NCBI GenBank assembly: GCA_947482665.1
Contig: CANKJK010000003.1
Coordinates: 186,001 to 250,000, forward strand
Length of the DNA: 64,000 nt
Source of the DNA: Acidobacteriota bacterium
GTDB lineage: Bacteria > Acidobacteriota > Vicinamibacteria > Vicinamibacterales > UBA2999
Reading direction: 5' to 3'
Below the pieces are notes generated by a model. That model was not told where the DNA came from, ran no database searches, and saw only the letters and a program-made list of their open reading frames with translations. Below are positions 49,505 through 54,221 of this stretch, piece after piece. Position 1 is the stretch's first letter. Each line of letters opens with the position of its first letter. Both the position numbers and the translations under genes were made by a program.

Positions 49505-50509
49505 CTACATCGTCCGGTTCCAGATCGGGACGCCCGCGGCCGTGTAGAGGACCAGGTTGCCGTCGTCCTGGAGCACCATGAACGCGCCAGGATTGCCCGC
49601 GGTGCTGGTGAACCAGATCGGGTTGTTGCCCCCGTCGTAGACCACGAAATTGCCGTCCGACTGGAAGATGGCCTGGCCGTTTGCGGCCGACGCACCTGTC
49701 CACCAGAGCGCCTGCCCGTCGACCATGTCGTAGACAACCAGGTTGCTGTCGTTCTGCATGTACAGGCGATAGCGGCCATTCGCCGAGGTGAGCCACTGAC
49801 CGGCCCGCATCGTGGAGCCCGCGACCATCCGCGAGGCGGTCGGCGTGAACCCGCCGTAGATGGCCTTCAGTCCGTTGATGTCGTCCTGCTGGACTCCATC
49901 CGTATCGCTGATGCGGCTGTTCATGATCGCGTTCACGGCCTGGCCTGCCAGATCGGGGTGATCCAGGCCCAGCACGTGACCGAACTCGTGAGCGGCGACA
50001 CGCCGGAGGTCGTAGAGGCGCCCGCCCGTCCTGCTCGACGTTCGCTGGGCGCCGCGATAGGAATCCCACGCCCGGCTGCTGTCGAAGACCACGTCGGTCT
50101 CGAGAATGATGCCCGTCTCGGCGTCAAAGCTGTAGAGCGTGATGCCCAGGGCGTCGCCGAACGGTTCCCCGTAATACGAGCTGGAGAAGAAGACGTCGTT
50201 CACGTCATTGCCCCGGCCCCTCTCTGTGCTGGTGCTCTGGTTCACCACGAAGTTGACATCGGCGACGTTGTTCCACCCCTGCGCGGCCGAGGCGCCCACG
50301 GCGTTCCACGTCGTCGTGCCGTCGAGCAGCACGTCGATCTGGCCGGTGCCGAGCTTCATTTCCAGCGGAATCGTCCGGCTCGTGGGCCAGCGGAGCTGAA
50401 GGTTGTCCCGCGTGGCGGTCACCCGGTAGGCGGACAGTGGAAGGGTGGCCGCCGCCACGGCGGTCACGGCGGCGGCGAGGGCCAGGGAGACTCGCATTCT
50501 GGCGCCCAT
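49505..50509 (-). CDS. Secreted matrixin metalloprotease with bulb-lectin domain (module 1)
   Basis: A signal peptide (ALAAAVTAVAAATLPLSAYR) precedes a metzincin domain. The zinc motif HEFGHVLGLDH spans residues 174-184, with the Met-turn in AIMNS. This matches matrixins (MMP-like enzymes). Residues 220-334 form a bulb-type (D-mannose-binding) lectin domain with repeated segments QNDSNLVVYD, QSDGNFVVYDG and QDDGNLVLYT. No Cys-switch pro-peptide is seen. The ATG overlaps the stop of the upstream small secreted gene by one base (TGATG), which suggests coupled synthesis. It should cut proteins at a glycan-rich surface. A paralog with the same partner lies 2 kb away. Confidence 0.9.
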   Translation of the reverse strand: MGARMRVSLALAAAVTAVAAATLPLSAYRVTATRDNLQLRWPTSRTIPLEMKLGTGQIDVLLDGTTTWNAVGASAAQGWNNVADVNFVVNQSTSTERGRGNDVNDVFFSSSYYGEPFGDALGITLYSFDAETGIILETDVVFDSSRAWDSYRGAQRTSSRTGGRLYDLRRVAAHEFGHVLGLDHPDLAGQAVNAIMNSRISDTDGVQQDDINGLKAIYGGFTPTASRMVAGSTMRAGQWLTSANGRYRLYMQNDSNLVVYDMVDGQALWWTGASAANGQAIFQSDGNFVVYDGGNNPIWFTSTAGNPGAFMVLQDDGNLVLYTAAGVPIWNRTM

Positions 50510-51111
50510 CAGCGGCGCTCCTTCAGGCGGTCCACGATCTGGGCGCGGAAGGCCGCAAGGGGCATGGGACGCCCGTCCCGCACCCGCGTGCCCCGGCCGC
50601 GGCCAACGTCCTCGGTGCGCACCAGCGGCAGACCGTCGACCGTCTGCACGGCGTCCGCGCCGGACCCGTCACGCGCCACCCGCATGAGCCCCTGTGAGAA
50701 TCCCACGATGGGGTTGATGCTCCGCTCCCGCTTGGCGAACACGACGCGCCGGTCGCCTGGGCTGAACGTGGGCATATCCGACACCTGCATGCCGAGCTTG
50801 CCGACCCGGCCCCCGAGGAACTCGAAGCTCTCCATGGAACTGGTCGTGCCCCACAGGGCATCCCGCACCAGGAAGGTGACGCGAGTCTTGATGAGCGTGC
50901 CCCCTGGCGTGGAGACGGTGAAGGGACGGACATCCAGCACATCACCAACGAAGATCACGTCCGCTTTCGCGACCAACTCGTTGAAGGTGACAGCCTCGTA
51001 GGAGGTCGCCTGCCCCTGCCGGGCACCGCCCAGCAGAAGCAGCAGGATGGTCGCCACGCGGGTCAGGCGCCCAGAACACGCCGACAGAGGTCCTTTGCCG
51101 GAAGTAGACAT
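50509..51111 (-). CDS. Small secreted partner protein, TIMP/NTR-like pattern (module 1)
   Basis: The start is the ATG at 51111, followed by a signal peptide (VATILLLLLGGARQGQATS). The mature protein begins TSYEAVTFNELVAKADVIFV, then GDVLDVRP and TRVTFLVRDALWG. The pattern 'ADVIFVGDV..V' followed by a strand ending in 'LWG' resembles the OB-fold of NTR/TIMP-like domains, though the N-terminal Cys of real TIMPs is missing. The second half has FSPGDRRVVFAKRERSINPI VGFSQGLM, shared almost unchanged with the module 2 homolog. The C-terminus is basic. It overlaps the matrixin gene, so a function as inhibitor, chaperone or docking factor is inferred, not shown. Confidence 0.75.
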   Translation of the reverse strand: MSTSGKGPLSACSGRLTRVATILLLLLGGARQGQATSYEAVTFNELVAKADVIFVGDVLDVRPFTVSTPGGTLIKTRVTFLVRDALWGTTSSMESFEFLGGRVGKLGMQVSDMPTFSPGDRRVVFAKRERSINPIVGFSQGLMRVARDGSGADAVQTVDGLPLVRTEDVGRGRGTRVRDGRPMPLAAFRAQIVDRLKERR

Positions 51112-51201
51112 AGAACTACAAACTACAACACCTTCCGTCCTCCCGCACCCCCTCCCACTGCCGGTCCTCGACCGCGTGCTAGCATCGGGCCGTACTGCCC
51201 C

Positions 51202-52002
51202 ATGCGGATTCCGGCGACCGTTATCTTCGCGCTCGTGATGGGTGCCGCGGTGCACGCGGCTGAGCCCCCGGCGCTCGTCCGTGCCCGCAATGCCTATAAC
51301 GCCGCGAATTACGACCAGGCCATCGCGCTCGCTGAAGAGGCCCTGAAGCAGAAGACCGACGCCGATGTGGCCGCACTCATCGGCGTGCGAGCCCGGCTGG
51401 AGCGCTTCCGCCTCGGGGGAAACGAGGCGGACCTGGCTGGCGCCCACTCGACGTTGCGTGCCATCGCCCGCCAGCGCCTGAAGCCGCGAGAACAGGCCGA
51501 GCTCCTCGTGGCACAGGGCTTGACGCTCTATCTCAGCCAGTCCTATGGCGGCGCCGCGGAGATCTTTGACTCAGCCCTCGCCCGCATGGGAGCCCTGGGC
51601 CTCGCCGATCGGGACCGCCTGCTGGAGTGGTGGGCCCTGGCACTGGACCGCGAGGCGCAGGCGCTGACGCCCGAGCGGCGCCGGGCCACCTACGAACGGA
51701 TTGCCGGGCGGATGGAGCAGGAGCTGCGGGAGAACCCCGCGAGTGTTCCGGCCAACTTCTGGCTGGCGTCAGCCTGCCGGAACGCCGGTGATGTGGACCG
51801 TGCCTGGGATGCGGCCATGGCGGCTTGGGTCCGTGTGCCCATCGACCTTCCCGGAGCGCAGGCGCTCCGACAGGATCTCGACCGGTTGATCGTCGAGGGC
51901 GTCGTCCCCGAGCGATCCCGCCAGCAGCCCCGTCCCGAGTGGGAGACCGTGGCGACCGGGCTCAAGAACCGCTGGGACGACTTCAAGCGGGAGTGGGAGT
52001 AA
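51202..52002 (+). CDS. Secreted TPR-like helical protein
   Basis: A signal peptide (ATVIFALVMGAAVHAAEP) is followed by about 245 residues of helical repeats. LVRARNAYNAANYDQAIALA and AEEALKQK make a good TPR-like unit, and SQSYGGAAEIFDSALARMGA and NFWLASACRNAGDVDRAWDA make two more. It probably mediates protein contacts in the periplasm. It stands between the two matrixin cassettes on the opposite strand and ends 3 bp before the stop of the module 2 protease. The location suggests a link to that system, but divergent orientation weakens the case. No enzyme motif is present. Confidence 0.75.
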   Translation: MRIPATVIFALVMGAAVHAAEPPALVRARNAYNAANYDQAIALAEEALKQKTDADVAALIGVRARLERFRLGGNEADLAGAHSTLRAIARQRLKPREQAELLVAQGLTLYLSQSYGGAAEIFDSALARMGALGLADRDRLLEWWALALDREAQALTPERRRATYERIAGRMEQELRENPASVPANFWLASACRNAGDVDRAWDAAMAAWVRVPIDLPGAQALRQDLDRLIVEGVVPERSRQQPRPEWETVATGLKNRWDDFKREWE

Positions 52003-52005
52003 AGC

Positions 52006-53625
52006 TCAATTCACGGTTAGGGTGTAGGCGCCCAGGTCTGACGCTGAGAAGGCCGTGGCCTCGATTCTGTAGGCGCCTGCCGTGGCCAACCGGAGCGCGA
52101 TGCGCGAGTTCGTCCCCCCGCCAGAGTCATCATCCGACGCCACCACGGATCCGTCGGGACCGATAAGGTTGAGGAAGGTATCGAATCCTGCCGACATCGT
52201 GATGGTCACCGTCTGGCCAGCCGCGCCCGTGAACATGTAGACGTCGCCGCGCGACGTGGACTTGCTCGGCGCCTGACAATCTGTGGCGGCCAGGGCACCG
52301 GCAATGCTGACGCCCTGCCCGGTCGTGACAACCGTTACCACGCACCCACTGACCGTTGCCAGCCCGCCGGGGATGGGGACCAGTGTGCCGCCGTTGGCGT
52401 ACACCCAGAGCGGCGTACCGGTACGTGAATACAGCACCAGGTTGCCGTCGCTCTGTATGGCGAGGAACGCGCCGGTATTGCCGGGCGTGCCGGTGAACCA
52501 GAGTGCGGCATTGCCTGCGCTGTAGATCACCAGATTTCCGTCACCCTGCAGGACCACCTGACCGGGCGCGCCGGTCGTCCCGGTGAACCACAATGCGCCA
52601 CCCGTGGTCAGGTCGTACATCACCAGATTCCCGTCACTCTGATACACGAGGCGGTACCGCCCATTGGGCGAGACAATCGCCTGCCCAGCGAGGAGGCGTC
52701 CCCCGGCGACCAGCCGATCCGACACCGTGACAGTGATCGAGACCGATGACGAGGCCGAGGCCCCGCGGCTGTCGGTGACGGTGACCGTCGCCGTCACAGT
52801 GCCCGCTGTGGAAGGCGCGGTCCAGGCGGTGCTTGAACTGCCTGAGTTGGCCACAGAGCCACCCGAGACCGACCACGCGTAGCTCAGCGAGTCGCCGTCC
52901 GGATCGCTAGCGCTGGCGCTCAGCGTGACGGCTCCGCCGGTCCCGATGGTGCAGGGGCTGCAGCTTGCGGTCACCGCCGGTGCGCGATTGGCCGAAGGGG
53001 CGCTGCCGTAGAGGGCGACCACGCCATTGATGTCGTCAGTCTGCAGGCGATCAATGTTGCTTGTGTAGGCGTTCATAATGGCCGTTCGGGACTGCCCGGC
53101 TTCATCAGGGTGATTCAACCCGAGCACATGGCCAAACTCGTGGATCGCGACACGGTAAACATCGTAGGTCCAGGTGGAACCGGAGGACCGAAGGTTGCCC
53201 CGGTAGGAGTTCCAGCTCTGGCTGCTATCGAACGCGACATCGGCTTCAGTAACAATGCCGGTGCTGGCGTTGTAGCTCCACCGCGTGTACGCAATCGCAC
53301 TGCCGAACGCGAATCCCCCTGGCCCCGTGTTCGAGAAGTACACGTTGTTGATGCCGTTGCCCAGCGAGATGGCAGAACTGGAGTTGCGGTTGATGCCGAA
53401 CGCGATATTGGCGCGACTGTTCCACGCCGCCAGTGCGTTCTCACCCACGACATTCCAGCTCGTGGACCCGTCGATGAGCGACAACGACGATGAGCCCATC
53501 TGCATGTGCATGGTGACGGTGGTGCCGGCCGTCCAGCGCGCACCGGTCAGAGAGTAGGCACCGCCGCGTATGGTGAGAGCCCCGATGGCCGCGGCGACCG
53601 CCAGTCCACAGAGCCAGGGCTTCAT
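52006..53625 (-). CDS. Secreted matrixin metalloprotease with Ig-like, lectin and PPC domains (module 2)
   Basis: After a signal peptide comes a matrixin domain with HEFGHVLGLNH (residues 162-172) and Met-turn AIMNA. An Ig/PKD-like domain (about 220-305, DPDGDSLSYAWSVSGG) follows. A bulb-lectin domain (about 308-425) has YQSDGNLVMYD, QGDGNLVIYS and QSDGNLVLYS. The C-terminus (about 445-539, GDVYMFTGAAGQTVTITMSA) is a PPC domain, common in secreted proteases. It is a larger version of the module 1 enzyme. The start overlaps the partner gene by ATGA. Both zinc motifs are intact, so both proteases should be active. Confidence 0.9.
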   Translation of the reverse strand: MKPWLCGLAVAAAIGALTIRGGAYSLTGARWTAGTTVTMHMQMGSSSLSLIDGSTSWNVVGENALAAWNSRANIAFGINRNSSSAISLGNGINNVYFSNTGPGGFAFGSAIAYTRWSYNASTGIVTEADVAFDSSQSWNSYRGNLRSSGSTWTYDVYRVAIHEFGHVLGLNHPDEAGQSRTAIMNAYTSNIDRLQTDDINGVVALYGSAPSANRAPAVTASCSPCTIGTGGAVTLSASASDPDGDSLSYAWSVSGGSVANSGSSSTAWTAPSTAGTVTATVTVTDSRGASASSSVSITVTVSDRLVAGGRLLAGQAIVSPNGRYRLVYQSDGNLVMYDLTTGGALWFTGTTGAPGQVVLQGDGNLVIYSAGNAALWFTGTPGNTGAFLAIQSDGNLVLYSRTGTPLWVYANGGTLVPIPGGLATVSGCVVTVVTTGQGVSIAGALAATDCQAPSKSTSRGDVYMFTGAAGQTVTITMSAGFDTFLNLIGPDGSVVASDDDSGGGTNSRIALRLATAGAYRIEATAFSASDLGAYTLTVN

Positions 53626-54221
53626 CGGCGGCGCTCCCGCAGCCCGTCGACGATGCGCGCACGGAACGACGAGAGCGCCATCGGCCGTGACTCCCGGACC
53701 CCAGCTCCACGCGGCCGGCCGATGTCCTCCGTGCGGGCCAGCGGCTCGCCGGTGCTGGTCATGATCACATCGAGGCCGGCGTCGTCCTGCGTGATCTTCA
53801 TCAGCCCCTGCGTGAAGCCCACGATGGGGTTGATGCTGCGCTCGCGTTTCGCGAACACGACGCGCCGGTCGCCTGGCTTGAAGGTCGGCATCTCGGCAAC
53901 CTTCTGCCCGATGTCGCCAAGCTCGCCGCCCATGAACTCGAGGATCTCAAGCGTGCTGCTGGTACCCAGCAGGGAGTCCCGGACCACGAAGGTCACCCTG
54001 GTCATGATGATCGTTCCCTCGCGGGACTCAACGGCGAAGGGCCGGACATCCAGGACGTCGCCGACGAAGATCATGTCGGCCTTCGTGAGCAGGTCGCTGA
54101 AGGTAACAGCCGGGTAGGAGGTGGCAGAGACCCGTGCAGGCCTGACGCACATCAGGGACACGGCGCACACCAGCGAATACGTGAGGAGCAAGTTCGTCCG
54201 CCGCCGATCATTCCTGGCCAT
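53622..54221 (-). CDS. Small secreted partner protein, TIMP/NTR-like pattern (module 2)
   Basis: This 199-residue protein is a clear paralog of the module 1 partner. It contains TSYPAVTFSDLLTKADMIFV with GDVLDVRPF, TRVTFVVRDSLLG, FKPGDRRVVFAKRERSINPI and VGFTQGLMK. Its signal peptide is LLLTYSLVCAVSLMCVRPAR followed by VSATS. The strongest conservation between the two partners lies in the GDRRVVFAKRERSINPIVGF block, which may be the contact surface. AGGGG stands before the ATG, and a sigma-70-like promoter lies 54 bp further upstream. Its TGA overlaps the ATG of the protease. Confidence 0.75.
   Translation of the reverse strand: MARNDRRRTNLLLTYSLVCAVSLMCVRPARVSATSYPAVTFSDLLTKADMIFVGDVLDVRPFAVESREGTIIMTRVTFVVRDSLLGTSSTLEILEFMGGELGDIGQKVAEMPTFKPGDRRVVFAKRERSINPIVGFTQGLMKITQDDAGLDVIMTSTGEPLARTEDIGRPRGAGVRESRPMALSSFRARIVDGLRERRR

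Follow-up and report, generated by a model that had tools for sequence, protein, structure and literature searches.

A cysteine-free secreted protein with a predicted TIMP-like fold is encoded in overlap with matrixin proteases in acidobacteria

What does a small secreted protein do when its gene runs directly into that of a matrixin metalloprotease, and does so twice in the same region? This question is raised by a 64,000-nucleotide stretch of DNA (the window) from an Acidobacteriota bacterium of the Vicinamibacterales (assembly GCA_947482665.1, contig CANKJK010000003.1, positions 186,001 to 250,000), in which two minus-strand cassettes each encode a protein of about 200 residues followed by a matrixin. 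A first-pass annotation, made from the letters alone, had likened the small proteins to the tissue inhibitors of metalloproteinases (TIMPs), which control matrix metalloproteinases (MMPs) in animals, and had offered three roles for them: inhibitor, chaperone or glycan-docking factor. The choice between these goes beyond what sequence alone can settle, and the natural fusions and the fixed N-terminal register described below favour an inhibitor or prodomain. We propose that the small partner is, with somewhat better than even confidence, a dedicated inhibitor or trans-acting prodomain of the matrixin encoded downstream, and that acidobacteria probably have a protease-inhibitor couple of their own of the TIMP/MMP sort.

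Two overlapping gene pairs in the window

In both cassettes the stop codon of the small gene overlaps the start codon of the matrixin gene, as TGATG in the first pair and ATGA in the second, which agrees with the initial reading of the locus; the partner and protease of each pair are encoded out of frame with each other. The features are as follows, in window positions:

53622-54221, minus strand: small partner 2, 199 residues (open reading frame)
54123-54221, minus strand: signal peptide of small partner 2
from 54122, minus strand: predicted mature chain of small partner 2 (TSYPAVTF...ADMIF)
53622-53625, minus strand: ATGA junction, stop of small partner 2 overlapping the start of matrixin 2 (read from the sequence)
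52006-53625, minus strand: matrixin 2, 539 residues (Pfam/NCBIfam and catalytic-domain model)
53002-53556, minus strand: catalytic domain of matrixin 2
about 52726-52989, minus strand: PKD/Ig domain of matrixin 2
about 52387-52713, minus strand: bulb-type lectin domain of matrixin 2
about 52057-52245, minus strand: PPC domain of matrixin 2
50509-51111, minus strand: small partner 1, 200 residues (open reading frame)
51007-51111, minus strand: signal peptide of small partner 1
from 51006, minus strand: predicted mature chain of small partner 1 (TSYEAVTF...ADVIF)
50507-50511, minus strand: TGATG junction, one base common to the stop of small partner 1 and the start of matrixin 1
49505-50509, minus strand: matrixin 1, 334 residues (Pfam/NCBIfam)
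49850-50428, minus strand: catalytic domain of matrixin 1
about 49505-49830, minus strand: lectin domain of matrixin 1

Both proteases carry the HEFGHVLGLxHPD motif, of the matrixin type HExxHxxGxxH, and a Met-turn (IMN), match Pfam Matrixin (PF00413) well above its cutoff (50.4 and 50.9 bits versus 24), and have the invariant matrixin (M10) residues H139, E140, H143, H149 and M161. The catalytic-domain model (predicted local distance difference test, pLDDT, 89.5) finds MMP-16 and karilysin as its top fold matches in the PDB (E about 8e-9), karilysin being among the closest solved relatives by fold and 25% identical to the catalytic domain. The lectin domains noted at first reading were recovered as well, with the lectin part of the putidacin-type NCBIfam model NF033557 matching at 1e-26 (49505-49830) and 4e-23 (about 52387-52713); this putidacin L1 lectin-like bacteriocin model fits the lectin regions far better than Pfam B_lectin, which stays below cutoff in both proteases (28.7 and 21.7 versus 32.4). 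The domain gain suggested for the second module likewise stands, as both the PKD/Ig and the PPC domains were found in matrixin 2. There is no cysteine anywhere in matrixin 1 or in the catalytic domain of matrixin 2, and the catalytic domain begins at or near the predicted end of the signal peptide; the window proteases thus lack the N-terminal prodomain with cysteine switch of animal MMPs.

The two small partners have a near-identical block in common, GDRRVVFAKRERSINPIVGF, as was first noticed, and their mature chains are 65% identical. They are sisters in a tree of 78 rows (Shimodaira-Hasegawa-like approximate likelihood ratio, SH-aLRT, 93). Identity and sister position together indicate a duplication of the cassette within this lineage, in line with the original suggestion. 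In the protease tree the catalytic domains of the window group with locus L011, with a branching order inside this group that the tree leaves open.

Conservation of the gene pair and natural fusions

The first-pass annotation had also raised the question of how often homologues of the small protein adjoin matrixins in other genomes. Counting only loci that were fetched with the small protein, and taking as linked those with a matrixin-motif open reading frame no more than 300 residues downstream on the same strand, we found a matrixin directly downstream for 100 of 110 distinct evaluable homologues, 75 of these 100 with the exact four-nucleotide overlap (NTGA) seen in cassette 2. As a control, motif-bearing reading frames elsewhere in the loci were rare (upstream in 1/115, on the opposite strand in 2/115). 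An earlier count that included loci fetched via a matrixin query had given 111/120 linked. The gene pairing is far beyond chance, at about 90% of loci, which speaks for the first reading of the locus, and it extends outside the class, where the partner is adjacent or fused to a matrixin in 13 of 19 evaluable loci, or 15 of 19 when two degenerate matrixins (L234, L238) are included. Among the ten unlinked homologues, the matrixin reading frame of L040 is broken and the first zinc-motif histidine of the L114 matrixin is replaced by glutamine; the others are for the most part divergent paralogues.

Homologues are present in 42 of 59 relatives; across the class, 119 of 193 genomes carry one, and in a phylum-wide sample of 297 genomes 90 do. 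A search of GTDB contigs with an alignment as query yielded 18 loci, whose titles are mostly those of acidobacterial metagenome-assembled genomes with a few labelled otherwise; a single-sequence query gave no match in the same contigs, and no match was found in the viral contigs searched. Three apparently lone matrixins (L180-L182) sit at contig edges, and at one locus (L007/L038/L059) an in-frame TAG interrupts the small gene beside a matrixin that looks intact.

Partner and protease also seem to have been inherited together. Both trees show a deep split into two clades, and in 77 of 78 pairs partner and protease fall on the same side of it, even in genomes that carry both types; the exception, L023, lies on a long branch. 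Furthermore, 11 loci encode a natural fusion in a single open reading frame, with the partner domain first and no second signal peptide. In L028, which lies in a single-contig genome, signal peptide, partner domain and matrixin follow one another in one reading frame, and L196, L197, L200, L202, L205, L207, L208, L210, L212 and L219 are built in this order too. Such single-chain fusions, as Rosetta-stone evidence, point to a link between the two that is physical or functional and, judging by domain order, the fused partner domain occupies the position of a prodomain. That two unrelated secreted proteins merely reside in one operon is the least credible explanation of all, given the linkage of about 90% across an order, the retention of the pair outside the class, the matched trees and the fusions.

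Predicted fold of the small partner

An AlphaFold2 model built on 19 mature chains (pLDDT 88.2, predicted template modelling score, pTM, 0.83) has an extended N-terminus, helices at residues 8-14 (a short one) and at the C-terminus, and several strands, of which two are long (17-33 and 36-52). When this model was searched with Foldseek against 350,542 PDB chains, TIMP-2 or the agrin NtA domain took ranks 1 to 6, with TIMP-1 and the NTR domain of PCOLCE close behind. The leading matches have a probability of 1.00, E values from 4e-3 and template modelling (TM) scores of about 0.4, at which the likeness to TIMPs counts at the level of fold only. The small partner is thus predicted to have an OB/NTR fold of TIMP-like type, as the first reading of the sequence had anticipated.

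At the sequence level, the small partners match no Pfam or NCBIfam family, and none of the 19 members matches a Pfam TIMP/NTR family. Sequence searches of the PDB, both with a single sequence and with the family profile, gave no match at E values up to 10, and this includes PotA, an OB-fold inhibitor; the inhibitor chain of the PotA-karilysin structure (PDB 8B2Q) does not appear in the first 50 fold matches.

The fold ranking bears on a docking or targeting role too, in which the NTR fold would bind glycan or matrix and bring the lectin-bearing protease to its substrate. Agrin NtA, which binds laminin, and the PCOLCE NTR domain are among the best fold matches, lectin, PKD and PPC domains occur in the proteases of the window, and stand-alone, apparently C-terminally anchored paralogues exist. 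We nevertheless consider this role quite unlikely, as it calls for neither a fixed free N-terminus nor a strict order of the genes, and pairing also persists in lineages, such as those of L047 and L048, for whose proteases the sequences read contain no lectin.

A fixed predicted mature N-terminus in TIMP register

The N-terminal region was examined column by column in 115 homologues. Residue -1 is A, S or G in 112 of them, there is no insertion or deletion between this residue and the core, position 1 is T or S in 95/115, position 3 is mostly V, L or Y, position 5 is P in 79/115 and position 15 is A or S in 113/115. TIMP-2 reads CSCSPVHPQQAFCNAD (PDB 1br9/2tmp), i.e., CSCSP...NAD, in the same register as P5 and A/S15 of the partner. 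The predicted cleavage site at position 1 is deduced from this column conservation. In the MMP-10/TIMP-2 complex, residues 1-5 of the TIMP fill the primed side of the cleft and the amine of Cys-1 binds the zinc (PMC3779175), and an extra N-terminal alanine on TIMP-3 disturbs MMP inhibition (PMC8403128). Paralogues that do not adjoin a matrixin (L131, L133-L137) have about 7-12 extra N-terminal residues. The initial remark that the partner has no N-terminal cysteine was correct, with T or S prevailing and no cysteine listed at position 1; lacking Cys1, the partner is not a TIMP by the defining motif.

Weighing an inhibitor against a folding helper

Several observations weigh against an inhibitor or trans-prodomain of TIMP type. 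E values of 4e-3 with TM scores near 0.4 reflect a likeness of fold and do not prove kinship, and a profile comparison of the 115 homologues with TIMPs by hhalign was not significant (Prob 0.3%, P 0.21). The TIMP likeness first proposed is borne out in the predicted fold, by the PDB ranking, and is not significant at the level of sequence profiles; the alignment that hhalign chose unprompted, itself not significant, places residues 5-25 on residues 5-25. Cys1-x-Cys3 and its disulfides, which anchor the inhibitory ridge of TIMPs, are missing, with no cysteine among the residues listed for these positions in the 115 homologues. A crude signal-peptidase scorer, too weak to use, put the cleavage site exactly at position 1 in only 45 of the 115, so for the register argument we rely on the conservation of the columns. 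The paralogues with long N-termini are an imperfect control for this register, since L132 has a 12-residue N-terminal extension and still adjoins a matrixin.

Other points concern the neighbours. L131 and L133-L137 stand alone, with no matrixin directly downstream; these copies are divergent, and of the copies related to L132 one adjoins a matrixin. L224, L225, L227 and L229 also lie away from matrixins and are apparently membrane-anchored, this subfamily having a hydrophobic C-terminal stretch that resembles a membrane anchor. The partners of L114, L234 and L238 adjoin matrixins with a degenerate active site, so the partner outlives catalysis in some lineages; these neighbours may be pseudo-proteases, and their zinc motifs read QEIGHFSGLGH, HNVGHFIGLGE and REFGKFLGLAS, respectively. 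Finally, unpaired short matrixins of the same genomes likewise lack a prodomain. A missing prodomain alone thus does not demand a partner, and we dropped the argument that its absence creates the need for an inhibitor. These unpaired short secreted matrixins are L183-L190, L192 and L198, most of which have a segment of DIMYFFGYGGDI type close to the C-terminus.

Some of these observations would suit a folding or export helper, a foldase resembling an intramolecular chaperone, which would template the matrixin in the periplasm and then be discarded, inhibition being incidental or absent. Degenerate matrixins would need folding and not inhibition, and the partner, which leads the gene pair and forms the N-terminal part of the fusions, stands where a prodomain would, so that a helper accounts for the gene order and the fusions almost as well as an inhibitor does. 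We hold this explanation to be unlikely, because it leaves the fixed predicted N-terminus and the predicted TIMP-type fold unneeded and because the unpaired matrixins of the same genomes apparently do without such a helper.

Proposed mode of action and comparison with known systems

If the small partner is an inhibitor or trans-prodomain, it could act as follows. The overlapping genes of each cassette are probably translationally coupled, and the secreted OB/NTR-fold protein would be made first, with the prodomain-less matrixin straight after. The small protein most likely binds the catalytic domain and keeps the enzyme inactive until the matrixin is out of the cell or at its target. By the likeliest, TIMP-like route, signal peptidase would expose an N-terminal [T/S]-[T/V/S]-[V/Y/L]-x-P segment, which would enter the cleft so that its free amine meets the catalytic zinc. 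We infer binding and inhibition as well as the site and timing of release; the contact between amine and zinc, drawn by analogy, is put forward tentatively. It is conceivable, though somewhat doubtful, that one bacterial phylum harbours a widespread cysteine-free TIMP analogue that blocks its own matrixin by placing its N-terminal amine on the zinc, whether it is a partner protein in its own right or is fused to the protease as a prodomain.

According to a review, all Metazoa express members of the TIMP family (PMC9409782). The bacterial partner resembles animal TIMPs (PF00965) in predicted fold, in the N-terminal register of P5 and A/S15 and in having a matrixin as its presumed target; unlike them, it has neither Cys1-x-Cys3 nor the matching disulfides, gives no significant profile match, and its gene overlaps that of the protease in an operon. 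The potempin genes of Tannerella forsythia lie directly upstream of the KLIKK protease genes (PMC7296668), an arrangement like that of the window, with a small secreted protein encoded directly upstream of the protease it controls. Potempins, however, are small lipoproteins, whereas the present family has no lipobox cysteine (A/S/G at -1, then mostly T/S) and mature chains of mostly 165-170 residues. The alkaline protease inhibitor of Pseudomonas is a dedicated inhibitor of a bacterial metzincin that acts through a zinc-NH2 bond, according to 2001 work as cited in PMC8235301. This bond is the mechanism proposed here; the Pseudomonas target is of serralysin type.

The Listeria Mtz-Tim pair consists of a metzincin and a TIMP-like secreted partner encoded by adjacent genes, and Mtz cleaves Tim and frees it (PMC8235301). 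The partner in acidobacteria might, in the way proposed for Mtz-Tim, be acted on by the protease, as its substrate or as a signal that cleavage sets free or switches. This is very improbable: the paired forms of the window have no lipobox cysteine or membrane anchor, there is no stalk to cut between signal peptide and fold, and the gene order is reversed, the Listeria protease gene coming first, its partner being a lipoprotein and a phage-like switch lying upstream. Both this and the docking role are less favoured than an inhibitor or trans-prodomain. The acidobacterial system differs from the known metzincin-partner systems in the absence of TIMP cysteines and of a lipobox, in its breadth, in its overlapping genes and in its fusions.

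If the proposal holds, the TIMP mechanism was also arrived at (or retained) in organisms other than animals, and the partner serves there as a trans-acting prodomain. A cysteine-free NTR-fold protein tied to matrixins through gene order, overlap and fusion would show how little of a TIMP suffices for control of the enzyme, and such partners would offer natural scaffolds for MMP inhibitors. A small, soluble pair of proteins would also make it possible to test a multiple origin of TIMP-type inhibition directly.

Neighbouring gene

Between the two cassettes lies an open reading frame on the plus strand (51202-52002, 266 residues) with what looks like a signal peptide and with helices that resemble repeats.
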